55,683 nt of DNA from Roseomonas sp. (GTDB lineage: Bacteria; Pseudomonadota; Alphaproteobacteria; Acetobacterales; Acetobacteraceae), in contig JADCES010000033.1 of the NCBI GenBank assembly GCA_020250005.1, positions 1-55,683 on the forward strand. Reading direction: 5' to 3'. Shown here in pieces: positions 3,311-21,675 of this stretch (positions within the stretch are counted from its first letter, which is position 1; every line of letters begins with the position of its first letter). Under the pieces are notes generated by a model. It was not told where the DNA came from. It did no database searches and saw only the letters and a list, made by a program, of their open reading frames with translations. A program made the translations under genes and the position numbers.

Positions 3311-3971
3311 TGACGCGGCCTTCTGACAGGGTGATCACACGTGCCGGGTGGCGCGCGGGCAAATCCTCGGAATGCGTTGCAACCACAATCGCGGTGCCAA
3401 GCCGGTTCATTTCCACAAACAGCGCAATCAGCCGGCGGGCTTCGAACACATCCAATTCCGAGGTCGGTTCATCGGCGATCAGCAAGGCGGGGCGCGTGAT
3501 GATGGCGCGCGCAATGGCGATGCGCTGCTGTTCGCCGCCGGAAAGCTCAGCCGGCGCACGCCCTGCCTTTGCCGCAAGGCCGAGCCAATCAAGGATTTCA
3601 TTGACATCCTGCTTGACCGTGGCTTCTGCCCGACCCGCGAGCCGCAGCGGCAACGCCACATTATCCCAGGCGGAAAGATGGCCCAGCAGGCGAAATTCCT
3701 GATGCACCACGCCGATCTTGCGCCGAAGGGGCGGGAGTGCGGCGCGTTCCGCCTGCCCGATATCGGTCCCCAGCACCGAAACCACGCCTCGTGAGGGGCG
3801 AATGGCGGCCTGCATCAGCCTGAGGATAGAACTTTTCCCTGCCCCCGAAGGCCCCAGCAGCCAGGTAAAGCTGCCTTCCCCCAGGGCGAAGGAGATATCG
3901 CGCAAGGCCTCCTGCCCCGGGCCGCCCTGGGGTGTTGGATAGGCCAGCCCGACGCGCCCGAATCTCACCAT
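3297..3971 (-). CDS. ftsE: Cell division ATP-binding protein FtsE
   Basis: This is the cytoplasmic ATPase of the FtsEX complex. The 224-residue protein shows Walker A GPSGAGKS, a Q-loop in VVHQEFRLL, the signature LSGGEQQR, Walker B LLIADEPT and a switch histidine in ATHSED. FtsE normally carries GNLD after the Walker B; here it is SELD, a small deviation. The ATG at 3971 (MVRFGRVGLAY) is chosen over an upstream in-frame start because it begins the ABC fold at the usual place. Its start faces the divergent zinc-ribbon gene across a 79-base gap that must hold both promoters. Confidence 0.92.
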   Translation of the reverse strand: MVRFGRVGLAYPTPQGGPGQEALRDISFALGEGSFTWLLGPSGAGKSSILRLMQAAIRPSRGVVSVLGTDIGQAERAALPPLRRKIGVVHQEFRLLGHLSAWDNVALPLRLAGRAEATVKQDVNEILDWLGLAAKAGRAPAELSGGEQQRIAIARAIITRPALLIADEPTSELDVFEARRLIALFVEMNRLGTAIVVATHSEDLPARHPARVITLSEGRVIDAP

Positions 3972-4050
3972 GGGGCTTGTTTCGCATGGCAGGGGCTTCG
4001 GGCTCAATCTTTCGCTTGCCGAGAAGCCTTCAGTAACGGAAAATAGGCGC

Positions 4051-4476
4051 ATGGTGATCGAATGTCCGAATTGCGCTGCCGGGTATCAGGTGCCCCCGCG
4101 TCTGTTGCGCGACCGCTCGCGCCCGCTGCGCTGCGGCCAATGCGGGATGGTGTTCCCCATCCCGGAACCGCCCCTGCCCGCGGAGGAGCCTGCGGCCTTC
4201 CGCACGCCTGAACCGCCGCCGCCTTCGCCGCTGGTGGAGGAACCACGCCGAGCGCCAACGCCGCTGGCCGAGGAGCCACGACCCGAGCCTATGGCGCCGC
4301 CGGATCCCCCGGCCGAGGCGGCGCAAGGGGCATCATCGCGCGGGCTGCGTGCGGCCTGGGCGGCTTCCATTGCGCTGCTGATCGGCGGCGGGCTTACCGC
4401 CATTATTCAGCGCGATGCGGTGATGGAAGCCTGGCCGCCAGCGGCGCGGTTATTTGCGGCGCTTGGCCTGGGGTGA
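4051..4476 (+). CDS. Zinc-ribbon (MJ0042-type) single-pass membrane protein
   Basis: A 141-residue protein starts with a compact zinc ribbon: CPNC at residues 5-8 and CGQC at about 31-34, with an intervening YQVPPRLL segment. This is the MJ0042/zinc-ribbon_4 pattern common at the N-terminus of alphaproteobacterial proteins encoded near ftsE. A proline- and glutamate-rich linker follows (about 40-105), then one transmembrane helix (about 112-128). The true start is taken as ATG 4051 because the ribbon begins directly after it. The molecular role is unknown; the linker and single helix suggest a tethered cytoplasmic zinc-finger sensor or scaffold. It is divergent from ftsE, which is common in relatives. 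Confidence 0.82.
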   Translation: MVIECPNCAAGYQVPPRLLRDRSRPLRCGQCGMVFPIPEPPLPAEEPAAFRTPEPPPPSPLVEEPRRAPTPLAEEPRPEPMAPPDPPAEAAQGASSRGLRAAWAASIALLIGGGLTAIIQRDAVMEAWPPAARLFAALGLG

Positions 4477-5107: not shown

Positions 5108-5419
5108 CAGTCCGTCCGGATGCCGCCAGATGCTTTCTGGCCTTGTCCCAACAGAAAGGCGCAGGACAGCACAACAGTCAAAACCGCCTTTCATCGCGAC
5201 CCCAGGGCGCATCAATGCCCGCGCCCCCGAAAAGGCATTCATTGCCGGGGCTGCATAGCCCCCGAAAAAAAACAGGGCAACTGAACGCGAAACGGCAGAT
5301 TTGGCCCCTGCTTTGTACCAAACATCACAGAGTTCTTGCCCCCCCTGTGCTCAAAACCTCCTGACGGGTGTGGACCCGCCGAGTTTTGGTGACGTTTTTT
5401 GGCCGCGGGAGGTGTCTTG
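5108..5419. other. Non-coding stretch upstream of the interrupted regulator
   Basis: No gene is recognised here. The stretch has weak hairpins (for example CGGGT-GTGG-ACCCG near 5365-5378) and a T-run at 5395-5400 just before the ribosome-binding site GGGAGG (5408-5413) of the downstream gene. Together with the repeat at 5007-5107 and a weak hairpin at 4780-4795, it makes up a gap of about 650 bases without a convincing intact gene. Confidence 0.5.
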
Positions 5420-6202
5420 ATGCGTATCTTGCAACGGGAGGAAGGCGAGGCATCTGTTACCGGAAGCCCCAATCTTCGCTTTTTTCCGCAAAGCCGTTCA
5501 TTGCGGATTTCCATCCTTGGCGAGCAACGCGCCCTTGTTGCGGATTTGGGGACCTATCTTGAACAGCACCATCTGGCGGTTAGCCATTGTGCCGCGTTTG
5601 GCGAATTGCTTTCAGGCCTTGAAGCACAAGAATATTCACTGCGACCTGATATTGTGATCCTGCAGGTGGGGAGCATGCTGAACGGCGCGCTGGGCTACCT
5701 GCACCAGATACGCGGGCGGCCCGATGTATTCTGCATCGTGCTTGGCATGGATAATGATGAAGCAGCCAGGGTGGCGCGGCTTGAAGCGGGCTGCGATGCA
5801 TGCATGGTGATCCCAACCAGCCCAAGGGAAATCCTGGCGCGTATGCGCGCGGCGCTGCGCCGCGGGCTTCCTGATTCGCGTTTGGGACGCTCCCCACAAC
5901 CGGAGACACACACCTACCCATCAGCATCAGGCTTGCCTTCACGCATGGTCGAATTGGGGCTTGGCTGGAAGCTGTGCCAGACGCGCCGTGAGATCTATCG
6001 CCCGGATGGTACAAGCTGCTCGGCAACCACGGCAGAATTTGATCTGCTCGCCCGCCTGGTAAGGCAGCCCGGCGTGCCTGTCAGCCGCGAGCAGATATCG
6101 CAGGCAGTCTATCGGCGCAGTTATCGCGCTGAAGATCGATCGGTGGATAACCTGGTTGTACGGCTTTGCCGCAAGCTTGAACTGGACCCGAGACAACCAT
6201 AA
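5420..6202 (+). CDS. OmpR-type response regulator with degenerate receiver, truncated by an in-frame stop
   Basis: The gene is predicted to encode a 260-residue DNA-binding regulator. The receiver-like domain (about residues 28-148) has lost the phosphorylation residues: the acidic pair is Gly34-Glu35, the phospho-acceptor Asp is Gln82, the switch Thr/Ser is Gly109 and the conserved Lys is Ile131. It therefore cannot be phosphorylated in the canonical way. A winged-helix domain of the Trans_reg_C type follows (about 178-260), with the typical SREQISQAVY and DRSVDNLVVRLCRKLE segments. The TAA at 6200-6202 falls just before the final wing, and the same frame continues with the expected ending. 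The ATG at 5420 follows GGGAGG by 6 bases and is preferred over an upstream TTG. It has no adjacent histidine kinase. Confidence 0.8.
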   Translation: MRILQREEGEASVTGSPNLRFFPQSRSLRISILGEQRALVADLGTYLEQHHLAVSHCAAFGELLSGLEAQEYSLRPDIVILQVGSMLNGALGYLHQIRGRPDVFCIVLGMDNDEAARVARLEAGCDACMVIPTSPREILARMRAALRRGLPDSRLGRSPQPETHTYPSASGLPSRMVELGLGWKLCQTRREIYRPDGTSCSATTAEFDLLARLVRQPGVPVSREQISQAVYRRSYRAEDRSVDNLVVRLCRKLELDPRQP

Positions 6203-6901: not shown

Positions 6902-7651
6902 ATGAATACCATCAAGCAAACCATCAAATCAGGCAAAACCGCCATCGGCACGACAGCGGGGCCGAATATTGATGTCTCGGTACTGGCTGATGCCGGCTTT
7001 GATTTCATCCTGTTCGATACGCAGCACTCGCCTTATGAGATCAAGCAGCTTGCGCCTTCCATCCAGGCGATGCGCGGCAAGAAGGCTGCCCCCTTGGTGC
7101 GCGTTGCCGCCAATCAGGCGGATCAGATCTGCTTCGCCTTGGATGCGGGCGCGCGTGGCATCATCGCCCCCATGATCAATACGCGCGCCGAGGCTGAGGC
7201 CATGGTGCGGTCCTGCCGCTACTACCCCGAGGGCAATCGCAGCAATGCCGGCGTACGCGGTGAATGGGGCGAATTCCCAAAATACCGCGACTATATGGAT
7301 ACGGTGAACAAGGAATTGGTCATTGTGCCGATGATCGAAACCAGGCAGGCGCTGGAAAATCTGGATGCCATCGCATCCGTCCCCGGTGTGGATGTGCTGC
7401 TGATCGGGCCTTCCGATCTTTCCATTGAATTGGATGTGCCGCTGGATTACGCTTGCGATACCTATCAGCGCGCGCTTGATAAGATTGCCGCAGCCGCCGC
7501 CAAGCACGGCATTGCGGCCGGCATGTATTTCATCCCGCCCGGCATGGAGCCGAATTTCTTCGTTGATAAGGGCTTCAAATTCTTCACCATGCCCTGGGGG
7601 CCTTGGGCCACCACCGGCATTCAGAACGCGATCGCCGGGATCAGGCGCTGA
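6902..7651 (+). CDS. HpcH/HpaI family aldolase
   Basis: A 249-residue class II (metal-dependent) pyruvate-type aldolase of the HpaI fold, cytosolic, which cleaves or forms 4-hydroxy-2-oxo acids. The four key residues of E. coli HpaI (His45, Arg70, Glu149, Asp175) all occur here with a constant offset of three: His42 in DTQHSP, Arg67 in LVRVA, Glu146 in PMIET and Asp172 in GPSDLS. The enzyme should therefore be active, but the substrate cannot be read from sequence. GGAGGAG precedes the ATG. It converges on the deacylase operon, separated by a hairpin, and sits beside amide- and peptide-degrading genes. This suggests it handles a carbon skeleton released by them. Confidence 0.88.
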   Translation: MNTIKQTIKSGKTAIGTTAGPNIDVSVLADAGFDFILFDTQHSPYEIKQLAPSIQAMRGKKAAPLVRVAANQADQICFALDAGARGIIAPMINTRAEAEAMVRSCRYYPEGNRSNAGVRGEWGEFPKYRDYMDTVNKELVIVPMIETRQALENLDAIASVPGVDVLLIGPSDLSIELDVPLDYACDTYQRALDKIAAAAAKHGIAAGMYFIPPGMEPNFFVDKGFKFFTMPWGPWATTGIQNAIAGIRR

Positions 7652-7656
7652 AAGCT

Positions 7657-7686
7657 ACGCCTGATCCCTTCGCAGGGGTCCGGCGT
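7657..7686. terminator. Hairpin between convergent genes
   Basis: ACGCC-T-GATCCC (7657-7668) pairs with GGGGTC-C-GGCGT (7675-7686) around the loop TTCGCA, with one mismatch and one wobble pair. No clear T-run follows on either strand. Its position between the aldolase stop and the stop of the deacylase gene suggests a shared terminator. Confidence 0.4.
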
Positions 7687-8714
7687 TACGCAATCTTCAA
7701 ATCACTCGCCAAATGGAACAGGCAATCGCCGCGCTTGGTGCGCGCGGGGATGCGCTGGCACATGACTATGCCCGCGGCCTTGAAGGTGATTTCTACCGGC
7801 GGCAACCACGGTGTTTCGGTGAAATGAATGCGCGCGGCGGGCGTGCCGGTGGCAACCATATCGCCCAATTGGACCAGCGGTTCAAACACGCCATTCTCCG
7901 GCGCATAGACGTAATAATCCTGCCCACGCACATCCAAGAACCGGGTGGGGGAGGGCGGTTCGACCCAGTCCGTTTGCGGCAGAATGCCAAGATGCACCAG
8001 CACATTGCGCACACCCCGCTCGGCAATCGCAAGGCCGGCGGGATTGACCGTACCTGAGCCGCCCAATTCGCTGCCAAGCGCAATCTTGCCACGCCGCTCC
8101 GCCCCGCTGCCGAGCGTTTGATTGCCACCCTGGCCTTGCGCGCCGCCCTGGATATAGGTGAAGGGCGCCCCAAAGGCGCGCAGCGCCGCCAATTGCTTTT
8201 GATATAGCGCGGGATCATTGGATTGTGTCGCCAGCGCGCAGGGCACGTAATTCAGCGATGACCCGCCCGAGTGTAAATCCATCACAAAATCCGCAAGCGG
8301 GATCAATTCGCTGTCAATGTAATGGGCGATTTGCCGCGTGACCGTGCCATCCGGATCGCCCGGAAAAATCCGGTTCAGGTTCAAATCATCAATCGGCGAC
8401 ACGCGCCGCCCCACAAGGGCTGCCGGGTAATTCGCCATGGTCAGGATGATGACGCGCCCCTTGATGTGCGCGGGGTCAAGCGACTTTGCCAGATTGGTCA
8501 GCGCCACCTGGCCTTCATATTCATCGCCATGATTGCCTGAGGTGAAGAGCGCGGTGGGCCCTTCGCCATTTTTCACCACCACAATGGGAATGGGCAGGAA
8601 GCCATAGGCGCTGTCATGGGTTGAATGGAACAGGCGGATGAAGCCTGTCTGCTTGCCATCCTTGTTGAAATCAACTTCGGAAACCAGGCGCGATTTGCGC
8701 GGCGCATCAGCCAT
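7686..8714 (-). CDS. Succinylglutamate desuccinylase/aspartoacylase family deacylase (DoeB-like)
   Basis: A 342-residue zinc carboxypeptidase-fold (M14-like) deacylase that hydrolyses N-acyl amino-acid-like amides in the cytosol. Zinc ligands are visible as His62 and Glu65 in GNHGDEYEG and His148 in DLHSGG. The N-terminus (DFNKDGKQTGF) and the SPIDDLNLNRIFPG segment resemble N-acetyl-diaminobutyrate deacetylases of ectoine breakdown (DoeB/EutE group). No other ectoine genes are present, so the substrate is open. The ATG at 8714 is used because it follows dppF-type gene 3 by 14 bases and gives the family's normal start. It is the last gene of the DMFase-Dpp operon. Confidence 0.85.
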   Translation of the reverse strand: MADAPRKSRLVSEVDFNKDGKQTGFIRLFHSTHDSAYGFLPIPIVVVKNGEGPTALFTSGNHGDEYEGQVALTNLAKSLDPAHIKGRVIILTMANYPAALVGRRVSPIDDLNLNRIFPGDPDGTVTRQIAHYIDSELIPLADFVMDLHSGGSSLNYVPCALATQSNDPALYQKQLAALRAFGAPFTYIQGGAQGQGGNQTLGSGAERRGKIALGSELGGSGTVNPAGLAIAERGVRNVLVHLGILPQTDWVEPPSPTRFLDVRGQDYYVYAPENGVFEPLVQLGDMVATGTPAARIHFTETPWLPPVEITFKAAGIVMCQRIPARTKRGDCLFHLASDLKIA

Positions 8715-8728
8715 GGTGCTTTCCCTAT

Positions 8729-9715
8729 TCAGGCTTGGGTCATCAAATGGCAGGCCACCTGATGGCCGGCCTGCGTCTCGGTAAGCGGTGGCGCCACTTC
8801 CTTGCATATCGGCATCACATGCGGGCAACGCGTATGGAAGCGGCAGCCGGAAGGCGGGTTGAGGGCGCTTGGAATATCGCCGGCGATGTTCTCTCGTTTG
8901 CCGCGTGACCGGCGTGATGGATGCGGCGCCGGCACGGCGGCGATCAGTGCCCGCGTGTAAGGGTGCTGCGGATCATTATAGATCACGCGCTTTTCAGCCA
9001 CTTCCACAATCTTGCCGAGATACATGACCGCAACCCGGTCTGAGATATGCCGCACCACCGAAAGATCATGCGCGATGAACAAATAGGTCAGCCCCATATC
9101 GCGCTGCAAATCCTGCAGCAGATTGACGATTTGCGCCTGGACCGAGACATCAAGCGCCGAGACCGCCTCATCACAGACAACAAAGCGCGGTTGCAGGACC
9201 AGCGCGCGGGCAATGCCAATCCGCTGGCGCTGACCGCCGGAGAATTCATGCGGAAAGCGATCCAGCGCACGGCGCGGCAGGCCGACGCGATCGAGCATTG
9301 CAGTGACCTGTTGGCGTCGCTCCACGCTGGATTTGGTGCCATGGATCACGAGCGGTTCGGCGATGATATCCTCGACCGCCATGCGCGGATTGAGCGCGCC
9401 GTAAGGGTCCTGGAAAATGATCTGCATGGAACGGCGAAATTCGCGCATCGCCGCACGGCCAAGCCCGGTGATTTCCTGCCCCTGAAAGCGAATGCTGCCC
9501 GCGGTCGGGTCCAGCAGCCGGATCAGCAGCCGCCCAAGGGTGGATTTGCCGCAGCCTGATTCGCCAACCAGGCCGAGCGTTTCACCGGGCATGATGCTAA
9601 GCGCCACATCATCCACCGCGCGCAGCTTGCTCGGCCGGCCGCCACGAAAAATGCCGCCGCCGCCCACATCGAAATGCTTGGCGAGGTTCGCAGCGCTGAT
9701 CAGCGGTTCGGTCAT
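8729..9715 (-). CDS. Dpp/Opp-type ABC transporter ATP-binding protein (DppF-like), system 1
   Basis: This is the second ATPase of a peptide/nickel-type importer, 328 residues. Walker A is GESGCGKST, the signature [15 protein letters not shown], Walker [13 protein letters not shown] (Ala where most have Pro), and the switch histidine lies in IAHDLS. The C-terminal oligopeptide-transporter extension is present, with the Cys-rich [14 protein letters not shown] segment that binds an iron-sulfur cluster in some homologues. The ATG at 9715 lies in the stop of the upstream ATPase gene (ATGA, 9712-9715). It powers uptake with the adjacent DppD-like partner. Confidence 0.93.
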
Positions 9716-10689
9716 GGGCCGGCCAATTCCTTGGCGCGCAGGCAGGCCGCCCAATGATCCGCTTCTTCCAGGATCAGCGGCGGCAGCGCCGCACTGCAAG
9801 AAGGCAGCGCATGGCGGCAACGTACACTATAGCGGCAACCTGGCGGGCGGCGTGCCGGGTCGGGCAGCGTGCCGGGAATGGCAATCAGCCGCGCGCGGTC
9901 TTCGGTGATGGAAGGCACGCATTCCAGCAGGCCGCGCGTATAGGGATGCACCGGGTGGTCGAAGATGCGCGCCACTGGTGCTTCTTCAATGACGCGCCCG
10001 GCATACATCACCAGCACGCGATCGGCGGTTTCCGCAATCACGCCCATGTTATGCGTGATGATCATGATCGCCATGCGGAATTCATCGCGTAAATCCATGA
10101 GCAGATCGAGGATTTGCGCCTGAATGGTCACATCCAGCGCCGTGGTCGGTTCATCGGCAATCAGGAGCTTTGGGTTGCAGGCAAGCGCGATGGCAATCAT
10201 CACGCGCTGGCGCTGCCCGCCTGACATCTGATGCGGGTAATCATCCAAGCGCCGCGCCGCTGATGGAATGCCCACCTTGTCCAGCATATCAATCGCGCGT
10301 TTGCGCAATGTGGCACCGGGCAGGTTTTCATGCGCCTTGATGGTTTCCATGATCTGATCGCCGATGGAAAACACTGGGTTCAGCGATGTCATGGGTTCCT
10401 GGAAAATCATGGCAATCCCGGGGCCGCGGATGCGCTGCATCTCTCGTGATGATAGCTTCGTCAGCTCCTGCCCCTGAAACTTGACGCTGCCGGCCGCGAT
10501 GCGCGCGGGCGGCGTGGGCAGCAGCCCCATGATGGTGAGCGCCGTGACACTTTTGCCGCTGCCGCTTTCCCCGACAATACCCAGGATCTCACCTTCCTTG
10601 AGGGAGAAGGAAGCATCCTCAATCGCGGTGATTTCGCCGCGCCCGGTCATGAAGGCCGTGGTTAGCCCCTGCACATCAAGCAAATTCAC
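9712..10689 (-). CDS. Dpp/Opp-type ABC transporter ATP-binding protein (DppD-like), system 1
   Basis: The first ATPase of the importer, 325 residues. It shows Walker [10 protein letters not shown]-loop [11 protein letters not shown], signature [12 protein letters not shown], Walker [13 protein letters not shown] and switch region ITHNMG, followed by the C-terminal oligo_HPY region with [14 protein letters not shown]. It overlaps the upstream permease gene and the downstream ATPase gene by ATGA junctions, so all four are translated from one message. Asn rather than Asp after the switch His is a small deviation common in DppD proteins. Confidence 0.94.
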
Positions 10690-11568
10690 TGTTGAATCCT
10701 GAGCCGGGGGTCAAGAACATCGCGCAGGCCATCGCCCAGAAAATTCAGGCCCATCACCGTGATCATGAGCGCAATGCCGGGGATGGTGATGATCCAGGGC
10801 GCTTCGCGCATGAAGTCGCGCCCCTCCGCCATGATATTGCCCCAGGTTGGCGTGGGCGGCACGGCACCAACGCCCAGGAAGGAGAGTGTCGCTTCAGACA
10901 GCACCGCAAAGGCAAAAAGAAAGGAAAGCTGCACAATCACGGGTGCCATGGCATTGGGCAGGATATGGCGCGTGAGGATACGCCAATGCCCCGCACCGGC
11001 AGCGACTGCCGCTTGGACGAATTCCATCTCTCGCAGCACAATCACAGAAGACCGGACAATACGCGCGGTGCGTGGAATATAGACAATGCCAAGCGCCAGA
11101 ATGACATTGAAGGTGGAAGGCCCGAGTACGGAAGTCACCGCAATGGCCAGCAGAATGGCCGGGAAAGCCATCAGCGCATCATTGATGCGCATCAGCAGAT
11201 TATCAATGCGCCGGAAATAGCCGGCAGCAGCGCCGATCAGAATACCGAACACTGCATTCAGCGCCACCACCGAAGCGCCGATCATCATGGAAAGCTGCGC
11301 CCCCCAGACCACGCGGGACCATAGGCTGCGCCCAAAACTATCCGTGCCGAAAACCCAGCCCTCACCAGGTGGCTTGAACTTGTTGCGCATGGAAAGCCGG
11401 TTGGGATCAACATCGGTAATCCACGGCGCCAAAACGGCAATGCTGGCAATGATCAGGAACAGGAAAAGCCCGGTCATGAACAACCGATGCCGCAGCAGTC
11501 GCTTCATGGTCGCGCGCGCGGGATGTTCGCGCTTCAGCGCAATGCCTTCGGCATCCAGCGCGGCGGCC

Positions 11569-11576
<8 letters not shown>
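10686..11576 (-). CDS. Dpp/Opp-type ABC transporter permease (DppC-like), system 1
   Basis: A 296-residue inner-membrane permease. The N-terminal cytoplasmic tail (about 1-30) is followed by a first helix, the DppC-specific periplasmic segment with GTDSFGRSLWSR, and five more helices. The EAA loop that contacts the ATPase is visible as VQAAVAAGAGHWRILTRHIL (about residues 203-222). The ATG at 11576 was chosen over an upstream start because it keeps an 8-base overlap with the DppB-like gene. The C-terminus GDGLRDVLDPRLR is typical. Confidence 0.92.
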
Positions 11577-12513
<937 letters not shown>

Positions 12514-12541
12514 GACTAGCCGCGCCCCCTAACGCAGGTTC

Positions 12542-14116
12542 TCAACGTTCAAGCCATACATTGGAAAAGCGCGGAATGCGGAAGGGCACGAAGCCCTTCA
12601 CATTGGCACGCGATGCCTGAACCTTGGTGAGTGACCCGAAGGGATAGGCATAGGCCCGTTCCAATACCAGGCGCTGCATGCGCACAAAGGCGGCTTGCCG
12701 GGCGGCGGGGTCGCGCAGGATGTTCATGTCATTCCAGGCGGCGAGCACATCCGGATCATCCTTGTCATCCCGCGGGCGATAGGCCGCATTGGGGGAAACC
12801 AGGAATTGCATCGTGGCCAGTGCGCCAAGGGCGGGCTGCGTGCCCCAACCGGAATGGAAGAAATGCCATTCCGTGGAATTGAGCCGCTGGGACATTTGCA
12901 CCGATGTCGGCCAATCCACCACGCGCAGTGACGCATTGATGCCAATGGCCTTCAATTGCTGTTCCATCACCAGCGCCGCATTATACATCGGCGTCAGGTC
13001 GCGATTGGTCAGGATGACAATCGGTTCGTTGCGATAGCCCGATTCACGCAACAATGTCCGCGCCAATTGCTGATTATTGATGTTGTAGGTTTCCTTGCCG
13101 GCATCCGTATAGCTTGGCTGATTCGGGTATTGGAACCCGACATTGAGCCGGAAGTTATTGTCGGAAGCCGCATCCATAATGTCTTCCATATTGAGCGCGG
13201 CCTGCACCGCGCGGCGGAAGGCAAGATTATTGGTGGGCGCGATGGAGGTATTGGGCAGCGCAATCTGAATCCACCAATTCTGCAAGGGCAGGATGGTGAT
13301 GGCCGGATTGCGCCGCAGCGCTTCCACCGAACGTGTCGGCACATCTTCCACCACATGCAGCGCGCCGGTTTCCAAGCCGGCCACGCGGGCGCTGGCTTCG
13401 GTCACGATGCGGAAGGTCACGGTATCAAGGCAGGCCACGCGATAGCCGCCAAAGCCCGTGCGCTGTTGATAGGCCGTATTGGGCCGATAGCCATCAAAGC
13501 GGCCAAGCCTGGCATGGCTGCCGGGCACGAATTCCAGCAGGCGGAAAGGCCCGGTGCCCACGGGGCGCAGCTGTTGGCGTTCATCATCCTTATGCTCGGA
13601 TGGGATGATGACAATGGGGACCGAGAAGGAAGACAGCGCTTCAATGAAGGTTGGCTGCACCTGCTTCATGCGAATGATGAAGGTGTGCGGATCGGGCGTT
13701 TCCCAGCCCGCCACATTATCCAAGGTGCTGCGTTGCAGGCCGATGCGATTGTACCGCTCAAAGGAAGCGGCGACATCCGCCGAGGTCATCGGCTTGCCAT
13801 TATGGAAGGTGATGCCCTGGCGCAGCCGGAAGGTATAGGTCATGCCATCGGGCGATTCCTGCATGGATTGGGCCAGTTCCGGGATGGGCGTATTATTCTC
13901 ATCGCGCGTGACCAGCGTCTCATAGATATTCATCGCGATATTGCGCGTGGAAATGGTGCTGGAGGTCATCTGATCCAGCGAATTCACATTGGCTTCCTGG
14001 CCAAAGACCAGATCGCCGCCGCGTGTGGGGCAGGTGAATGGGTTGGCCAGCAAAGGCGCCGCCGATAGCGCCATGGCAGCGGCAACAAGACCCGTGCTCA
14101 AACTCAGGCGTTTCAT
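12542..14116 (-). CDS. Periplasmic substrate-binding protein of Dpp-type importer, system 1
   Basis: A 524-residue family 5 solute-binding protein (SBP_bac_5). A Sec signal peptide is clear (residues 1-24, ending LLAN). The mature protein has the usual features: GGDLVFGQEANVNSLD, the ITFHNGKPMTSADVAASFERY signature region, VGTGPFRLLEF, and a C-terminal domain from about residue 300. The ligand class (peptide, amine, opine, other) cannot be decided from sequence. It is encoded between the DMFase-like enzyme and the permeases. This suggests it captures a substrate related to that enzyme's amide. Confidence 0.92.
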   Translation of the reverse strand: MKRLSLSTGLVAAAMALSAAPLLANPFTCPTRGGDLVFGQEANVNSLDQMTSSTISTRNIAMNIYETLVTRDENNTPIPELAQSMQESPDGMTYTFRLRQGITFHNGKPMTSADVAASFERYNRIGLQRSTLDNVAGWETPDPHTFIIRMKQVQPTFIEALSSFSVPIVIIPSEHKDDERQQLRPVGTGPFRLLEFVPGSHARLGRFDGYRPNTAYQQRTGFGGYRVACLDTVTFRIVTEASARVAGLETGALHVVEDVPTRSVEALRRNPAITILPLQNWWIQIALPNTSIAPTNNLAFRRAVQAALNMEDIMDAASDNNFRLNVGFQYPNQPSYTDAGKETYNINNQQLARTLLRESGYRNEPIVILTNRDLTPMYNAALVMEQQLKAIGINASLRVVDWPTSVQMSQRLNSTEWHFFHSGWGTQPALGALATMQFLVSPNAAYRPRDDKDDPDVLAAWNDMNILRDPAARQAAFVRMQRLVLERAYAYPFGSLTKVQASRANVKGFVPFRIPRFSNVWLER

Positions 14117-14170
14117 CCATGCTCTCCCGTTATTGATGGTGCGTTAGCTTCATGCGCGCGCCCCGCGGCG

Positions 14171-16381
14171 TCAACCATAATCGGCAAGCCCAGCGAAGCG
14201 GCGTACAACATTTTCCGTCAGCCGACTGATCGGCCCTTCAAACCCCCGGCGCCAGAGGCTCCCGCAATAGGTAATGGAACCAACCGCGAACACCGCACCA
14301 CCGCCTGGTGTTTCGAAATAGATAATCTCACCGCGCTTCAGCGCTTGCGCTTTTTCGCCATTCACGGTGTTCACATGCGAAAGCAATTCCTCCGGAACCG
14401 CGACAAAGGAAGCGGGCGGGTCTTCCGAAACAGCCAGAATCGCCGTGCCATCCGGTGTGCCAAGGGCTGGGTCCGCGCGGTCCAATTCAAAGCCGGCTGC
14501 CCCGCCGCCGGAAAGCCCGTAATCGCCAATGGTCTCGCCTTCCACGCCTTCGAACATCCAGGCATGACGCGCTTCACGCGCCGGTGGCAGCAGGCGGTAA
14601 TAGGTGCCTTCAAACAGACCCTGGCCAGAAAAGCCAACGCCTGCCAATTGCTGCGGCGGGCGACGATTGCGCCGCCACAACCCGCCATAGGCGCCATCGG
14701 TCTGGTGATAATATTCGCCAGGCTCGGCGGCCCAGGCGCGAATACCGCCCTCTGCCCGGCGGAGTTCAAACACACCTGGCATATCGGCGGGCTGCGCGAT
14801 GCGCCAATAAAAGCCATTGCCGCCGAGATACATCATGCGCCCGCCGCTGCGCGTATAAGTGTAAAGCGCATCAAGCGTTTGCGGCGTGTGATATTCCGGG
14901 TGCGATCCCGTCATCACCACTTTGTAATTCGCCAGCAGCGCCGCGCCTTCGGCATGCAAATCATGATCCGTGATCACATCAAACGCCAAGCCGCGCGCTT
15001 CCAGCCAGGCCAGGATATGCGTATCGGCGGGGTAGTGGCGCAGCCCCGATCCCTTTGCGTCATTGAAGGTGAGAAACCCAGGCCGCATGGTCATGATCGG
15101 GCGCAGCCGCGATGAAAAGGCGATGCCGCTATTATCCGGATGGCGATTATAGGTTGAGCGCCCATAGATCGGGAAATCATCCGGATTATGCGGGTAAGCG
15201 CCCCAAGCCGCGACGCGTGCGCGATAGGCGGCATCCGCATTGCCGCGGGAATGATTGGCATAAGCCTGATAGGTGAAAGTGGAAGCCAGAAACGCAATCG
15301 GCGCTGTCGCCGTGCCGCGCGGGGGCAGGACATAGAAGGGGATGTGATCTTCACCTTCTGCGCAGGAAACATGGAAGGCATAGGCGCCGGAACGCAAATC
15401 CGCCGGCACGTTGAAACTGAAATCATCCGCCCAGCCGCAATCGCTTAGATCATCGGCATGGAAATGAATGGCGGCGTAGTCGGCGGGGGCGTGCCGCCAG
15501 CACATCTCCGCACCCGACCAACGGGCGCCGACCACGGCGCGGGTTGGCACATTCACCAAATTGCCATGGCAGGCCTGCTGGCCGATATCCTCCACGCGCT
15601 GGGTCGCGATGCCGCGTGCGAAATCCCAGCCGGCGATCAAGCCTGGCGAAGCAGCGGAAAGCGGCGCATCCGGGCGCGGCCATTCGGCGCAAAACCCGGC
15701 CAGGATGGTGGGGTCTTCTATCTTGCCGGTCAGATGCGCGGTCGGCGCGGCAGCGTTTTCAGCTGCAATCATCACGACGCCCGCGCCATCGGGCAGCGCC
15801 AGACCGCTTGCCGAGATTTCCCGCGTACTGGCGGGGCTGGCATCTTCAATGCACTGCGCGCCGAGCAGGATGCGCCCCGTGGCGGGATCGGCACTCAGCC
15901 AAAGCCGATGCCAGCGGCGCAGCGCCAAGGGCGCGCCAAGGCCAAGCTGCCGCTCCCCGCCCGGCCAAGAAATGCGCGCCATCGGCCCATGCGGCCCCAC
16001 CGCCAGCATCACGCGGTACCCCGCCTGTTCTTCGCTGATCACGGCGGCTTCGGCGCTGGGCTGCGCCTGGAACCAGACCAGCGCGGTCCAGGTGGTGGGC
16101 CCCGCCGCGCGCTTGGGCGCTTTGGGGATCAGCGCATAGGACCCAAGCCGGATCGGCTGATGGCGCCCCTGAAATTCGGCATCGAAGCGCGCTGAAAGAT
16201 CCTCAAACCGCAGCCCCGGTCCGGCCGGATTGGGATCGCCCGAAATCACGCGGCGCAGCCTGGCCCGGTAGCGCCCGCCACTCGGCACGCTGATCTTCAC
16301 CGCCAGGCTTTCGCCGGGGCGCGCGGAAAAACGGTCCAGATAGCCGGTGATGGGCAATTCGGCGGGCTTGGCTTCGGCCAT
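14171..16381 (-). CDS. N,N-dimethylformamidase large-subunit-like amidohydrolase
   Basis: A 736-residue protein that resembles the large subunit of bacterial N,N-dimethylformamidase, an iron enzyme that hydrolyses small amides. An N-terminal beta-rich, LamG-like region (about 1-250) precedes the catalytic glutamine-amidotransferase-like region. From memory, the Paracoccus enzyme binds iron by Tyr399, Tyr440 and Glu521, with His519, Asn547 and Glu657 nearby. With a constant offset of 25, Tyr374, His494, Glu496 (in SHPEYHT), Asn522 and Glu632 match; Tyr411 is the likely third ligand. No small-subunit gene is visible. The ATG at 16381 is preferred over an upstream in-frame start. It is the first gene of the operon with the Dpp-type importer and deacylase. 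Confidence 0.8.
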   Translation of the reverse strand: MAEAKPAELPITGYLDRFSARPGESLAVKISVPSGGRYRARLRRVISGDPNPAGPGLRFEDLSARFDAEFQGRHQPIRLGSYALIPKAPKRAAGPTTWTALVWFQAQPSAEAAVISEEQAGYRVMLAVGPHGPMARISWPGGERQLGLGAPLALRRWHRLWLSADPATGRILLGAQCIEDASPASTREISASGLALPDGAGVVMIAAENAAAPTAHLTGKIEDPTILAGFCAEWPRPDAPLSAASPGLIAGWDFARGIATQRVEDIGQQACHGNLVNVPTRAVVGARWSGAEMCWRHAPADYAAIHFHADDLSDCGWADDFSFNVPADLRSGAYAFHVSCAEGEDHIPFYVLPPRGTATAPIAFLASTFTYQAYANHSRGNADAAYRARVAAWGAYPHNPDDFPIYGRSTYNRHPDNSGIAFSSRLRPIMTMRPGFLTFNDAKGSGLRHYPADTHILAWLEARGLAFDVITDHDLHAEGAALLANYKVVMTGSHPEYHTPQTLDALYTYTRSGGRMMYLGGNGFYWRIAQPADMPGVFELRRAEGGIRAWAAEPGEYYHQTDGAYGGLWRRNRRPPQQLAGVGFSGQGLFEGTYYRLLPPAREARHAWMFEGVEGETIGDYGLSGGGAAGFELDRADPALGTPDGTAILAVSEDPPASFVAVPEELLSHVNTVNGEKAQALKRGEIIYFETPGGGAVFAVGSITYCGSLWRRGFEGPISRLTENVVRRFAGLADYG

Positions 16382-16506
16382 GGTGGTTTCCTTCCCCTTT
16401 CCCGCAATGCTCCGCGCCCGGCCCGCCGCCGTCAACACCCGCCCGATGGTCAGGCGCGCCTGATCTGTGCAAGGCTTGGTGCAGGGATTGGTTCAAGAGG
16501 GTGCAG
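16382..16506. promoter_or_regulatory. Divergent promoter region, DMFase operon / class II aldolase
   Basis: This 125-base gap separates two divergently transcribed genes and must hold both promoters. No clear -35/-10 pair or operator palindrome stands out. The only sure element is the ribosome-binding site AAGAGGG (16495-16501), 5 to 6 bases before the ATG at 16507. Confidence 0.4.
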
Positions 16507-17271
16507 ATGACCGCCATCATCGAAAAACTGAGCGATAGCCGGGCCGAGGCGCGCGAATGGGAACTCCGCTGCGACATGGCGGCCGTGTTTCGTATTGGCG
16601 CCAGGCTCGGCTGGAACGAGCATATCGGCAACCACAACAGCCTGATGTTGCCCGATGAGGCCGAGCCGCGCTTCCTGATCAACCCGCGCGGCTATTTATT
16701 CCAGGAACTGAAAGCATCCGATCTGATTGTGTGTGACCTTGAAGGGCGCGTGCTGCGTGGTAGCGGTGAATTGCGCAAGGTCGCATTCCATATCCACACA
16801 CGCATCCATCTGGCCAATCCGGCAGCAACTTGCGTGATCCATGTCCATCCGCGGCATTTGACCGCGCTTTCCATGGTGCAGGGCGCGGAATTTGCGCTTT
16901 CGCATCACAACAACCTGCTGCTGAATGACCGCACGGTTTATGATGACGAAGGCGATCAGCCCGTGCATAGCAATGAAGAAGGGGACCGCATTGCGCGGCT
17001 GATGGGCGATAAAACCATCATGCTGATGCGCGGCCATGGCGTGACGGTGGTAGGCCCAACCGTGCATGACGCTTTCGACGAATGCTATATGGCGGAACGC
17101 ACCTGCATGTATCAATTGACTGCGATGCAAACCGGGCTGCCCCTGCACAAGCTGCCCGATAATCTGCGCCGCAATCATACGGGGCCATGGGGTGAAAAGC
17201 TGGATGCGCGGCTCCATCTGAATGCCTGGCGCCGCGTTTTGGACCGGGAAGAAGCTGATTACGCGCGCTGA
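16507..17271 (+). CDS. Class II aldolase/adducin family protein
   Basis: A 254-residue protein of the class II aldolase/adducin fold, cytosolic. Metal-binding histidines are visible at His112 and His114 in VIHVHPRH and in the later RGHG motif. The catalytic Glu of fuculose-phosphate aldolase would fall four residues before His95, where Lys91 is found. This matches the adducin-like branch rather than classical sugar-phosphate aldolases, so the reaction (aldol cleavage, decarboxylation or isomerisation) is uncertain. The start at 16507 is chosen because AAGAGGG lies at the right distance; a GTG six bases earlier would sit on top of it. It lies 42 bases before the first Bug receptor. Confidence 0.82.
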   Translation: MTAIIEKLSDSRAEAREWELRCDMAAVFRIGARLGWNEHIGNHNSLMLPDEAEPRFLINPRGYLFQELKASDLIVCDLEGRVLRGSGELRKVAFHIHTRIHLANPAATCVIHVHPRHLTALSMVQGAEFALSHHNNLLLNDRTVYDDEGDQPVHSNEEGDRIARLMGDKTIMLMRGHGVTVVGPTVHDAFDECYMAERTCMYQLTAMQTGLPLHKLPDNLRRNHTGPWGEKLDARLHLNAWRRVLDREEADYAR

Positions 17272-17313: not shown

Positions 17314-18291
17314 ATGATCCAACGTCGTACCCTTCTTGCCTCGCCATTGGCGCTTGGCCTGGCAAGCCCTGCAATTGCGCAAGCCCCCTGGCCCAATCGG
17401 CCGATGCGGGTGATTGTCGGCTTCCCGCCCGGCGGTTCGCTCGACGTATTGTCACGGCTGATGGCCGAGGAACTCAGCCGCCGCACCGGTCAGCCGGTGG
17501 TGGTGGAAAACCGCGCCGGCGCGGCCGGCAATATCGGCGCCGATGCGGTAGCCAAGGCGGCGCCGGATGGCACAACTATCGGGACGGTCGGGTTCACCGT
17601 TCCGCTGACCGCGCCGGTTCTGTTCAACCGACTGCCCTTTGATGCGGAAAAGGACTTCGCCTGGGTTTCCGAGGTTTGGGAGCTTCCCAATGTCGCCGTG
17701 GTGCCGGCAGCGCATGTGCCGGCGCGCAACATCGCCGAATTCGTTGCCTGGGCGCGCCAGCAGCCGCGCGGGATCAGCTATGGCTCGCCCGGGGTTGGCA
17801 CATCGCCGCATCTTTCCGCGGCGCTGTTCCTGCATCGCCTGGGTATCGCCGGGGAACATGTGCCCTTCCGCGGCGCGGCGCAGACCATCCCGGCGATTCT
17901 CTCCGGCGATGTTCATTTCGCCATAGATAACCTCGCGAGCTATGTCCCTGTGATCCAGGAAGGGCGGATGCGTGCGCTGGGCGTAACCTCGGCTGAACGC
18001 TGGCCGACCATGCCCGATGTGCCGACACTTCAGGAAGCCGCCGGCGCCGCGGGTTTTGCCGCCGTGTCCTGGACCATGTGGGCTTTCCCTGCCGGGACGC
18101 CGGAACGGATGGTCCGCCGCCTGGCTGAGGAGATCGCCGCCATCAACTCAACGCCCGCAATCGTCGAAAGGGCGCTGCTGATGGGCGGGCGGCTGCTGCA
18201 TGGCGGGCCAGAGGCAGCGCGGGCGCGCATTGAGCGTGAGCGTGGGCTTTGGGCTGATATGGTGCGGATCTCAGGCGCGCGGATGGAATAG
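17314..18291 (+). CDS. Bug family (TctC-type) periplasmic solute receptor 1
   Basis: A 325-residue extracytoplasmic receptor. Twin-arginine-like or Sec signal (RR at 4-5, cleavage near AIAQA, residues 19-23). Mature protein begins with the family hallmark PNRPMRVIVGFPPGGSLD and contains the central GxxG region ISYGSPGVGTSPHLS, where Bug proteins bind carboxylate ligands through water contacts. Ligands in the family include di- and tricarboxylates, nicotinate and amino acids; none can be assigned. A ribosome-binding site GGGAG lies 8 bases upstream. It is followed by a paralogue 114 bases later and probably arose by tandem duplication. Confidence 0.93.
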   Translation: MIQRRTLLASPLALGLASPAIAQAPWPNRPMRVIVGFPPGGSLDVLSRLMAEELSRRTGQPVVVENRAGAAGNIGADAVAKAAPDGTTIGTVGFTVPLTAPVLFNRLPFDAEKDFAWVSEVWELPNVAVVPAAHVPARNIAEFVAWARQQPRGISYGSPGVGTSPHLSAALFLHRLGIAGEHVPFRGAAQTIPAILSGDVHFAIDNLASYVPVIQEGRMRALGVTSAERWPTMPDVPTLQEAAGAAGFAAVSWTMWAFPAGTPERMVRRLAEEIAAINSTPAIVERALLMGGRLLHGGPEAARARIERERGLWADMVRISGARME

Positions 18292-18405: not shown

Positions 18406-19383
18406 ATGCTGGGTCGTCGCCCATTGATTGCAGCCGCCCTTGCCGCGCCAGCGCTGCCACTGCCTGCACTTGGCCAGGCGCCCTGGCCCAATCGGCCGGT
18501 GCGCGTGATTGTCGGCTTCCCGCCCGGCGGGTCGCTTGATGTGATGACGCGTCTGGCCTGCGAGGTTTTGTCGCGCCGCTTCGGGCAGAATTTCATTGTC
18601 GAGACGCGTTCCGGCGCTTCCGGCAATATCGGCACGGAAGCCATCGCGCGCGCGACACCGGATGGTTACACCATCGGTACGATCAGCATGCATAATATCG
18701 TGATCAACCCGATGCTGTTCAAAACCCTGCCCTATGATCCTGAGCGCGATTTCGCCTGGATCAGCGCCATGTGGGATTTGCCCAATGTGGTGGCGGTGCC
18801 GGCGCAGCATGTGCCGGCGCAAACGCTCCAGGAATTCATCGCCTGGGCCAAAACGCGGCGGGGTGGCATCAGCTACGGATCTTCGGGTGTGGGCACCACC
18901 ATTCATCTTTCCGGCGCGTATCTTCTGGGACGCGCGGGGATTGAGGCGACGCATGTGGCCTTCCGCGGCGCGGCGCAGACCATCCCGGCCATGCTTTCGG
19001 GTGATATCCAACTCGCCGTGGATAACCTCGCGAGCTATGTCGGCGTCATTCAGGAAGGGCGTATTCGCCCGCTTGCGGTGACCTTGCCTGAGCGCTGGCC
19101 TGCCATGCCCAATGTGCCCACCATGGCGGAAGCGGGGATGGATGATTTCAACGTCAGCCCGTGGCATATGTGGGGCGGCCCGCGCGCCATGCCGCGCGAG
19201 ATTGTGGACCGGATTTCGTCCGAAATCCGCGCTGCCTTTGCCGATCCGGAATTGCAGCAACGCGCCATTGGCATGGGCGCGCGGCTGACGGGTTCAACGC
19301 CGGAAGAACTGGCCGCGCGGTTGAAGCGCGAACAGCCGATTTGGGCCGAGATGGTGAGGATTTCTGGCGCGCAGCCGGAATAG
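18406..19383 (+). CDS. Bug family (TctC-type) periplasmic solute receptor 2
   Basis: A 325-residue paralogue of the preceding receptor, with the same length and nearly the same ends. The signal peptide is residues 1-24 (cleavage near ALGQA). The mature protein has APWPNRPVRVIVGFPPGGS. The stretch around 18957-19045 is close to identical in DNA to 17869-17959 (the FRGAAQTIPA and DNLASYV regions). Signal peptides and loops have diverged more than the ligand pocket, suggesting related but not identical ligands. No membrane TctA/TctB partner is encoded in this window. Confidence 0.93.
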   Translation: MLGRRPLIAAALAAPALPLPALGQAPWPNRPVRVIVGFPPGGSLDVMTRLACEVLSRRFGQNFIVETRSGASGNIGTEAIARATPDGYTIGTISMHNIVINPMLFKTLPYDPERDFAWISAMWDLPNVVAVPAQHVPAQTLQEFIAWAKTRRGGISYGSSGVGTTIHLSGAYLLGRAGIEATHVAFRGAAQTIPAMLSGDIQLAVDNLASYVGVIQEGRIRPLAVTLPERWPAMPNVPTMAEAGMDDFNVSPWHMWGGPRAMPREIVDRISSEIRAAFADPELQQRAIGMGARLTGSTPEELAARLKREQPIWAEMVRISGAQPE

Positions 19384-19443: not shown

Positions 19444-20394
19444 TCACGCCAGCCCCAAGGCCCAAAGCAGCACGCCCTTTTGCGCATGCAGGCGGTTCTC
19501 CGCCTCATCAAACACCACGCTTTGCGGTCCATCCATCACCTCATCGGTGATCTCCTCACCGCGATGCGCGGGCAGGCAATGCATGACAATCGCATCCGGC
19601 GCGGCATGCTTCAGCAAAGACGTGTTCAATTGATAAGGCGCCAAAAGATTATGCCGGCTTTCGGCGCGCCCATCACGCTCATCGGACATGGAAACCCAGG
19701 TATCGGTCACCACGCACCGCGCATCGCGCACGGCGGCGATGGGGTCATGGGTCAGCTCCACCTTGGCGCCTTGCGCGCGCGCCCAGGCAATCAACTCAGC
19801 CGGCGGCGCCAGTTCCGGGGGTGTCGCCAGCCGCAGCGTAAAGCCAAAGCGCGCCGCTGCCTGGATGAAGGATTGCGCAACGTTGTTGCCATCACCTGTC
19901 CAGGCCACCACCTGCCCGGCGATTGGGCCGCGATGTTCCTCAAAGGTCATGACATCGGCCATCAATTGGCAGGGATGCGATACATCGGTCAGGCCATTGA
20001 TCACCGGCACTGTCGCATGTTCCGCCAATTCACGGATCTTCTGCACATTATCGGTGCGCAGCATGATGGCATCCACATAGCGCGACAGCACCTTCGCGGT
20101 ATCGGCAGGTGTCTCACCTCGGCCAAGCTGCATATCCTTGGATGACAGCACAATCACCTCACCGCCCAATTGGCGGATACCCACTTCGAAGGAAACGCGT
20201 GTGCGGGTGGAGGGTTTTTCGAAAATCAGGGCAATGGATTTGCCAGCCAGCGGCTTGCCCGCAAGCTCACCGCGCTTGGCACGCCCGGCCACATCCAGCA
20301 TCCGGCGCAGCACCGCCGGTTCAAGATCCATCAATTCCAAAAAGTGGCGGGGCGGCGCATCGCCGCCCCTCACTGATTTCAACATGGCACTCAT
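19444..20394 (-). CDS. argF: Ornithine carbamoyltransferase
   Basis: ArgF joins carbamoyl phosphate and ornithine to give citrulline in arginine synthesis (cytosol). The 316-residue protein is typical in length and has all expected motifs: the carbamoyl-phosphate loop STRTR at residues 62-66, HPCQ in the middle, and the ornithine-binding [10 protein letters not shown] near the C-terminus. Its ATG (20392-20394) lies inside the argD stop (ATGA), so the two are translationally coupled, an arrangement common in alphaproteobacteria. Confidence 0.97.
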
Positions 20395-21593
20395 TGCGCC
20401 GCGGCTTGGGTACCGGCGGGCGTCAGGCGCTGGCAGGCGCGATCCAGCAGCGCCACCGCCTCATCCGCATCCGCTTCCGTGATGATCAAGGGCGGTGCCA
20501 AGCGCAGCACATTCATGCCCGCGGCGACCGTCAGCAGCCCCTCGGCCACGGCGGCATTCTGCATTTCGCCGTTATTCACCTCGGGTCGCAGCTTCAGGCC
20601 CAGCAGCAGGCCAGCGCCGCGCACATCCTCAATCACTGTCGGGTGCTTGGCGGCAAGGGCCAGCAGGGCGCGCCACAAATGCCGCGCCACCTGATCCACA
20701 CGCTCCAGGAAGCCGGGGGCAGAGACGACATCCATCACCGCATTGCCGGCGGCGCAAGCAAGCGGCCCGCCGCCATAAGTCGAGCCATGCGTGCCGGGCT
20801 TGAGATGCTTCGCCACATGTTCCTTGGCGAAAATACCACCCAGCGGGAAGCCGCCACCAATACCCTTGGCGGAGGACATCACATCAGGCTCGATCCCGGC
20901 CCATTGATGGGCCCACATCTTGCCGGAACGGCCCATGCCGGTCTGCACTTCGTCCAGCGCCAGCAGCAGCCCGTATTCATCGCACATGGCGCGCAATTCG
21001 CGCAGGAAACGCAGCGGCGCGGGGCGCACGCCGCCTTCGCCCTGCACGGGTTCAATCAGCACGCCGGCTGTATTCGGGCCAATCGCATCACGTACCGCAT
21101 TCATATTGTCGAAGGGCACATGATCAAAGCCTTCAACCGGCGGGCCGAAGCCGGCCAGGTATTTCTCATTCCCCGTGGCGGCCAGCGCGGCCATGGTGCG
21201 GCCATGGAAGGCGCCATCAAAGCAGATCAGCCGGTAGCGTTCCGGATGGCCGTTTTCCGCATGGTATTTGCGGACAGCCTTGATCATGCCTTCATTGGCT
21301 TCCGCACCGGAATTGCAGAAAAACACACTATCGGCGAAGGAATTTTCCACATGCCGCCGCGCCAGCGTTTCCGCCTGCGGAATGCGATACAGGTTGGAGG
21401 CATGAATGATCTTGCCCGCCTGTTCCGCAATCACCCGCGTCAGGTGCTGATGGCCATGACCGAGCGAGGAAGTCGCGATGCCCGCGCCGAAATCCAGGAA
21501 ACGTCGGCCATCTTCCGTCCAAAGTCGCGCGCCTTCGCCCCGCTCAAAGGCAAGGTCGGCACGGTTATAGGTCGGCATCAGGGCGGGAATCAC
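20391..21593 (-). CDS. argD: Acetylornithine/succinyldiaminopimelate aminotransferase
   Basis: A class III PLP-dependent transaminase, about 400 residues, that makes N-acetylornithine (arginine) and may also serve lysine synthesis. PLP elements are visible: [11 protein letters not shown] (phosphate cup), the DEVQTGMGR strand with its Asp, and [13 protein letters not shown] with the Schiff-base lysine. The family normally begins close to [10 protein letters not shown]. The GTG at 21593 starts exactly there with GGAG upstream and is chosen over an ATG at 21647 and an internal ATG at 21578. It is followed by argF in the same operon. Confidence 0.95.
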
Positions 21594-21675
21594 GTTTCCA
21601 GTCTCCAGCGCAACCGGCCCGGGCGCAGGCGACCATCGCCCCACCAAGGACCGGAAAGGCGAATCTTGCCGGAAA

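Follow-up and report, generated by a model that had tools for sequence, protein, structure and literature searches.

N,N-dimethylformamidase (DMFase) binds its iron through Y399, Y440 and E521, depends on H519 and holds N547 in its site; a constriction formed by F693 of the neighbouring subunit restricts substrate size, the large subunit alone is inactive, and the catalytic core is described as ThuA/glutamine-amidotransferase-like, all according to the available part of one paper (PMC7686228). In ectoine degradation the deacetylase DoeB acts with the aminotransferase DoeD, as given in the accessible text of PMC3187862. Pyruvic oxime dioxygenase belongs to the class II aldolase family, lacks the FucA catalytic residues and uses Fe(II); the excerpt that reports this suggests a possible oxygenase role for further proteins of the kind (PMC5216522), and in a second excerpt a Glu from another sequence position fills the place of Glu73 (PMC11841055). 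Relatives of these enzymes meet in a gene cluster of Roseomonas sp., on the 55,683-nucleotide contig JADCES010000033.1, the whole of which we call the window: a seven-gene operon encodes a DMFase-superfamily (DMF-like) hydrolase, a Dpp/Opp-type ATP-binding cassette (ABC) importer and a DoeB-like deacylase, and a class II aldolase-like gene diverges from it. The seven genes and their divergent partner are under purifying selection, and their arrangement is more than chance. Searches of one literature library listed no account of such a set of genes.

All seven genes are open and run on the minus strand from 7686 to 16381, so that the first-pass annotation of this region was borne out in its gene calls as in its short gaps (-8 to +54 bases). 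With the chosen starts, the gaps are 54 bases between the DMF-like and binding-protein genes, 28 to DppB, -8 to DppC, -4 to DppD, -4 to DppF and 14 to the DoeB-like gene. Pfam agrees at the family level with each product name: DMFA2_C for the hydrolase, AstE_AspA_cat for the deacylase, and, for an importer that is complete, one SBP_bac_5 binding protein, two BPD_transp_1 permeases (one with OppC_N as well) and two ABC_tran ATPases with oligo_HPY. The flanking genes match HpcH_HpaI (convergent), Aldolase_II (divergent) and TctC (two Bug receptors).

Conservation was examined in two counts that are kept apart and not added, some genomes being common to both. The first used a pattern-based scan with one genome per species, in which the best 80 of 92 matches gave 78 loci; 77 of these had a DMF-like match long enough to use (L064 was dropped), and they were banded by identity to the window's DMF-like protein. 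At 90% identity or more (16 loci), the binding protein adjoins the DMF-like gene on the same strand in every locus. All seven genes are found in 11, the remaining five contigs ending first, and the divergent aldolase-like gene in 14, the exceptions (L017 and L024) having fewer than 400 bases of flank. At 68-77%, a band of Neoroseomonas, Roseomonas, Pseudoroseomonas and Rhodovarius, the seven genes and the divergent gene are present in 12 of 12 loci. The binding protein is still found in 11 of the 18 loci at 58-67%, divergent in ten and co-directional in one (Bradyrhizobium, L069), and in none of the five at 50-57% or the 26 below 50%. The ratio of non-synonymous to synonymous substitution rates (dN/dS) was 0.00-0.09 for the genes compared in five near kin, and 0.07-0.17 in two of the 12 loci of the 68-77% band (L025 and L034), where gene order is kept although synonymous sites have changed heavily (dS about 0.9-1.4). 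In the five near kin the DMF-like protein varies mostly outside its catalytic domain: residues 100-349 take up more than half of its changes (20 of 25 in L036). The same order is present in two culturable relatives, Neoroseomonas soli (L027) and N. oryzicola (L046). A single operon and a functional linkage of importer, DMF-like, DoeB-like and class II aldolase-like genes are supported.

The second count covered 150 genomes of the family and took 40 of 77 DMF-like rows, leaving out 37 below 49% identity, together with 37 aldolase-like rows at 54% or more. Judged by their length, five contigs carry two identifiers (L032 = G067/L098, L040 = G055/L099, L045 = G020/L100, L039 = G002/L101 and L033 = G051/L103). 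The binding protein lies no more than 0.9 kb from a DMF-like gene (at least 57% identity) in 16 of 28 places, six co-directional, our own included, and ten divergent; the ten divergent neighbours can share a promoter region. Counted from the other side, a binding protein of at least 58% identity stands beside a DMF-like gene in 16 of 25 places.

The closest structure to the DMF-like hydrolase is 8huy, an N-acetyl-(R)-beta-phenylalanine acylase. Two acylase sequences score 701 and 700 bits, ahead of DMFase 6lvb at 416 bits, and identity is 48% to the acylase (743 aligned positions) against 35% to the Paracoccus aminophilus DMFase. The acylase name is that of the PDB entry; our literature search found no paper on the enzyme. 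In a tree of 54 rows with the root drawn at the midpoint, the main split (support 100/100) puts 13 rows on the side of DMFase and 41 on that of the window enzyme, which falls within a group of 24 (100/99). All five iron-site residues are kept, as Y374, Y411, H494, E496 and N522 in the enzyme's own numbering, in support of the earlier statement that its catalytic residues are conserved. The places of DMFase Y399, Y440, H519 and E521 are conserved in all 54 rows, and that of N547 in 50. The place of Phe693 holds Phe in eight of the 54, all within the 13-row DMFase clade; in the window it is Ser in the MAFFT alignment and a gap in the HMMER alignment.

Small-subunit homologues sit just upstream in 12 of the 13 DMFase-clade rows (all except L075), and in none of the 39 judgeable loci of the other clade, window included; of its 41 rows, the acylase row is without DNA and L060 begins inside its gene. 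Two weak matches in that clade, in L111 (E 0.37) and L112 (E 0.13), are not upstream, and a search of the window's genome with dmfA1, which had no positive control, gave no match at E<=1. The window enzyme thus stands on the acylase's side of the tree, apart from DMFase, and is without a small subunit. Judged from its residues, it probably works like DMFase at its metal, but its branch of the family is a one-subunit one in which larger substrates would fit. It is not a member of the amidohydrolase superfamily, because the available text of PMC7686228 describes the DMFase core as given above. On the DMFase side of the tree, small open reading frames (ORFs) of 101-132 amino acids precede the genes in L073 (9646-9960), L074 (1855-2160), L124 (7651-7962) and L127 (6597-6995); they are mutually related, are tied to the DMFase small subunit through ORFs of L077, L083 and L086, and are called 'hypothetical protein' where annotated.

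The importer gives little guidance to the substrate. The binding protein could not be given a named specificity (DppA, OppA, GsiB, NikA and others): none of the 11 NCBIfam models that it matches reaches its cut-off, DppA_dipep scoring 52 against 1005 bits. The best PDB relatives are 8vdx and 5u4o, followed by AgaA 6hlx. The nearest solved structures go by the names of many ligands, and no substrate was deduced from them.

The deacylase at the other end of the operon matches a single NCBIfam model at E<=0.001, TIGR02994 (DoeB), with 309.9 bits against a cut-off of 402.7. Its best structure is 3cdx, and DoeB itself (6twl) comes next. For ectoine hydrolase (TIGR02993), the best match in the window's genome is 20.5 bits against a cut-off of 613, in a search where 14 control genomes likewise gave weak matches and none over the cut-off, that is, without a positive control. 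In the close relatives L107 (10221-11372) and L108 (7394-8545) an M20 hydrolase directly follows the DMF-like gene, as if replacing the AspA-type enzyme. Its top NCBIfam match is DoeB2, whose cut-off of 550 bits it misses with 347 and 349 bits; it also passes a general amidohydrolase cut-off.

In the divergent class II aldolase-like protein, aligned with Escherichia coli FucA (L135), the metal histidines His92, His94 and His155 are kept in 11 of 11 members. In the same sequence alignment Glu73 has become Ala and Tyr113 His in all 11; Asn29, Thr43, Ser71 and Ser72 are changed as well, and Gly44 is kept. A Glu, E160, stands unchanged in all 13 rows of the group. Aldol cleavage by this protein is thus unsupported by its residues, although a structural substitute may exist. 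A predicted model has a middling mean predicted local distance difference test score (pLDDT 71.6), and no conclusion rests on it.

The HpaI and Bug genes had been proposed as further parts of the pathway and are present as annotated, but their conservation ends with the near kin. HpaI occurs in six of the 16 loci at 90% or more and is absent from L010, L011, L015 and L020 though the contig continues. A Bug receptor (at least 60% identity) lies within 4 kb in 12 of the 16; two Bug queries can match one gene, and two receptors are told apart only in L010, L011, L019 and L036. Both HpaI and Bug genes are found in 0 of 12 loci at 68-77%, and they were left out of the core set.

Partner genes recur in other orders, ORFs here being taken from a codon-based caller. 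DMF-like and class II aldolase-like genes are neighbours in five arrangements; among these are the divergent window type, the DMF-like gene ahead of the aldolase-like one (L101, one record with L039) and the reverse order (L102). A plasmid of Palleronia sp. LCG004 (L121) carries in a row a LacI regulator, a class III aminotransferase, a DMF-like gene (48% identity), an aldolase-like gene (58%) and a TRAP importer, and Bradyrhizobium L069 has, in order, aldolase-like, DoeB-like, aminotransferase, DMF-like and importer genes. A class III aminotransferase is found with the DMF-like gene in L069, L111, L113, L120, L121 and nine Achromobacter-group loci (L058, L059, L061, L062, L065-L068 and L070); the calls rest on Pfam for L113 and L061, and on similarity, NCBIfam or record annotation for the others. 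Four places (L097, L116, L117 and L118, the last cut by a contig end) have a DoeB-like gene immediately next to an aldolase-like one, at 17-67 bases, beside a Dpp-type importer and with no DMF-like gene on the contig. The kind of importer also varies, from Dpp (window type, L069) to TRAP (L121 and L122) to other ABC genes (Achromobacter group, without Pfam typing). Altogether, the picture is one of a kit of parts: an importer, one or two amide-cleaving enzymes, an aminotransferase and an aldolase-like protein. Among the divergent-type loci, five (L098, L099, L100, L104 and L106) have a malate/lactate-dehydrogenase-like gene after the DMF-like gene, assigned by Pfam on L099 and by clustering on the others. 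Following the importer-DoeB operon in L098 (17099-18927), L099 (360-2967) and L100 (12353-14863) are genes for rubrerythrin and a cysteine-rich-domain (CCG) protein, with DUF3501 in L099 and L100; here, too, Pfam was used on L099 and clustering elsewhere.

We lean, by no great measure, towards a catabolic operon for a small N-acylated, carboxylate-bearing compound, with which the bacterium probably feeds on an N-acylated small molecule. It is favoured by the acylase as closest solved relative, by the iron-site places conserved throughout the tree and by the recurring partner genes. By analogy with its relatives, the substrate would possibly be an N-acyl amino acid or N-acyl amine, maybe of the beta-amino-acid kind; a carboxylate is suggested because the nearest relative is an acylase and because Dpp and TRAP importers are exchanged. 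The binding protein and DppBCDF would take the compound into the cell, where the cytoplasmic, single-subunit iron enzyme (2-Tyr-1-Glu) would hydrolyse the amide and free the amine. The AspA/AstE-type zinc enzyme would then strip a second acyl group, or handle a sibling substrate, and the divergent class II aldolase/adducin metal protein could act on a later carbon intermediate, whether by aldol cleavage or by another reaction. Genomes other than this one add a class III aminotransferase to the set. The metals, the direction of flux, the class of substrate, the order of steps and the chemistry as a whole are what we infer from genes and residues; by eye, a signal peptide is not evident on either hydrolase, in favour of hydrolysis in the cytoplasm.

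Several observations weigh against this reading. A DMF-like gene lacks that binding protein within 9 kb in 12 of the 28 places, and the binding protein lacks a DMF-like gene within 9 kb in nine of the 25, some of them in each case at contig ends; none of the 37 left-out DMF-like rows lies on the contigs of those nine. Because the two also occur apart, their substrates may differ from case to case. An importer is also an unspecific neighbour, ABC genes lying upstream of two-subunit DMFase-clade genes as well (L078-L085). The acylase falls outside the window's 24-row group, which contains no protein of known activity; both share a 37-row group (support 88/87) without a settled inner order. Finally, the window's operon is without an aminotransferase, and the best class III enzyme found in its genome is 38% identical to that of Palleronia and lies on another contig. 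The first-pass annotation had held that the link would fail if DMF-like gene and importer lay far apart and separately transcribed in relatives. The outcome is mixed: no such binding protein is near in the 12 places just given, and the two are neighbours in the 16 counted earlier. The link between importer and DMF-like hydrolase is real and not obligatory, because importer and DoeB-like genes occur without a DMF-like gene nearby (L088 and L096; L095 likewise, although its contig starts inside the binding-protein gene and could have lost a DMF-like gene there), just as DMF-like genes occur without this importer.

The main rival takes up these same separate occurrences: in general scavenging of peptides or N-acyl-peptides, the two hydrolases would work on different imported substrates with no single linear pathway. 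An oligopeptide-type importer would suit it, yet the full seven-gene order holds in each of the 12 loci of the 68-77% band, and a similar set is rebuilt with other importers in relatives, which makes it on balance unlikely. Lower still we place a hitherto undescribed pathway that would degrade a diamino or beta-amino acid, doubly acylated or cyclic, a doe-like design made from unrelated parts: the iron DMF-superfamily hydrolase would stand for DoeA, the DoeB-like zinc deacylase (M20 in L107 and L108) would follow, a class III aminotransferase would serve as DoeD in relatives, and the class II protein would be an oxygenase or decarboxylase. This we regard as a distinctly tentative proposal.

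The remaining readings fare worse. That the DoeB-like enzyme is a true DoeB in an ectoine or N-acetyl-diaminobutyrate pathway is suggested by TIGR02994 as its only NCBIfam match, by 6twl among its closest structures and by the described partnership of DoeB and DoeD (PMC3187862, available text); it is improbable given a score below the equivalog cut-off, a best structure that is not DoeB and the 20.5-bit ectoine-hydrolase result with its lack of a positive control. On that score and that search the ectoine pathway was rejected, and the DoeB label does not hold in the strict sense. The full scheme drawn up earlier, in which the class II enzyme and HpaI carry out a final aldol cleavage, has in its favour that both aldolase families adjoin the operon, that Caulobacter L053 and Novosphingobium L055 have distant aldolase-like (32%) and HpaI-like (36-40%) matches no more than 10 kb from DMF-like genes, and that a Glu from elsewhere can replace Glu73 in the dioxygenase (excerpt of PMC11841055), E160 being invariant here. 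With Glu73 and Tyr113 replaced in 11 of 11, a superfamily relative that is an Fe(II) dioxygenase (PMC5216522, in part) and HpaI and Bug genes absent from the 12 loci, aldol cleavage was not upheld and the scheme is very improbable. Least credible is an operon for N,N-dimethylformamide itself or a short formamide. It shares the Pfam family and iron-site residues, and the ABC genes beside true DMFase-clade genes mean that an importer is no argument against it; but 35% identity, the position across the main split, Ser in place of the size-restricting Phe693, and a missing small subunit when the large one alone is inactive (PMC7686228, available part) led us to reject a true DMFase and to withdraw that label. 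In sum, the observation made at first is confirmed and its interpretation partly supported.

The findings bear on annotation. In our sample the family splits into two-subunit and one-subunit clades, and one-subunit members are found alongside importers, aminotransferases, a second deacylase or a class II aldolase-like protein. Four plasmid records (L120-L123) carry such genes under the label "N,N-dimethylformamidase beta subunit family" though no small subunit adjoins, so caution is due in reading such genes as dimethylformamide degradation; their gene partners make the true substrate testable. If it were a natural beta- or diamino-acid amide, the operon would mark a nutrient route so far unmapped in these bacteria. 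The combination of genes and the one-subunit clade are what is worth noting; the parts themselves are familiar.

Table 1. Features of the operon and its surroundings in the window.
Feature	Position	Strand	Basis
DMFase-superfamily (DMFA2_C) hydrolase, 736 aa, single-subunit type	14171..16381	-	PF20254 326 bits; PDB matches; residues; tree
Family 5 periplasmic solute-binding protein, 524 aa	12542..14116	-	PF00496 237 bits; N-terminal signal-peptide-like stretch (by eye)
DppB-type permease	11569..12513	-	PF00528 + PF19300
DppC-type permease	10686..11576	-	PF00528 + PF12911
DppD-type ATPase, GTG start	9712..10689	-	PF00005 + PF08352
DppF-type ATPase	8729..9715	-	PF00005 + PF08352; NF008453 409.9 bits, above cut-off 408
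AspA/AstE-type zinc deacylase, DoeB-like, 342 aa	7686..8714	-	PF24827 129 bits; TIGR02994 310 bits; PDB matches
Class II aldolase/adducin-like protein, divergent from operon	16501..17271	+	PF00596 140 bits; His triad kept
Intergenic region (119 bases) between the divergent genes, presumed to hold control elements of both	16382..16500	.	Sequence between operon and class II aldolase-like gene
HpaI/HpcH-family aldolase, convergent; pathway link doubtful	6902..7651	+	PF03328 106 bits
Two TctC/Bug receptors; pathway link doubtful	17314-18291, 18406-19383	+	PF03401

For the class II aldolase-like gene, the table gives the GTG start; an ATG at 16507 fits the homologues better. Beyond the Bug genes, ArgD and ArgF (19444-21647) were considered as pathway genes and rejected, and are read as arginine-biosynthesis neighbours; six aminotransferases that go with DMF-like genes share only 28-34% identity with ArgD. 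A response-regulator-like gene at 5399-6202 looks interrupted, its Trans_reg_C match ending short at the end of the frame. A tight row on the minus strand at 1159-4052 encodes an FtsX-like permease with an ATPase, a DUF218 protein and an acyltransferase. A second transporter set, at 42048-45746, gives a DNA-level match to the Dpp genes of the operon, and the genome has many such paralogues.

Compared with known systems, the DMF-like enzyme most resembles the N-acetyl-(R)-beta-phenylalanine acylase (8huy, 8i59 and 8i5a), which it matches over nearly its full length, in its iron-site residues and in Ser at the Phe693 place; the acylase, compared here by sequence, differs in lying outside the 24-row clade. 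With the Paracoccus DMFase (6lvb) it shares the superfamily, the 2-Tyr-1-Glu iron-site residues, His519 and Asn547, whereas the small subunit, Phe693, the side of the main split and the gene partners all differ. The deacylase has the AspA/AstE family, a full-length alignment and the HGDE...DLHSGG...ELGG motifs in common with the N-acetyl-L-2,4-diaminobutyrate deacetylase DoeB (6twl), but scores below its cut-off, has no DoeA partner found over cut-off and sits behind a Dpp importer. The divergent protein, finally, belongs with FucA and pyruvic oxime dioxygenase to the class II aldolase/adducin family and has the three metal histidines, and it departs from FucA in lacking Glu73, Tyr113, Asn29, Thr43, Ser71 and Ser72.

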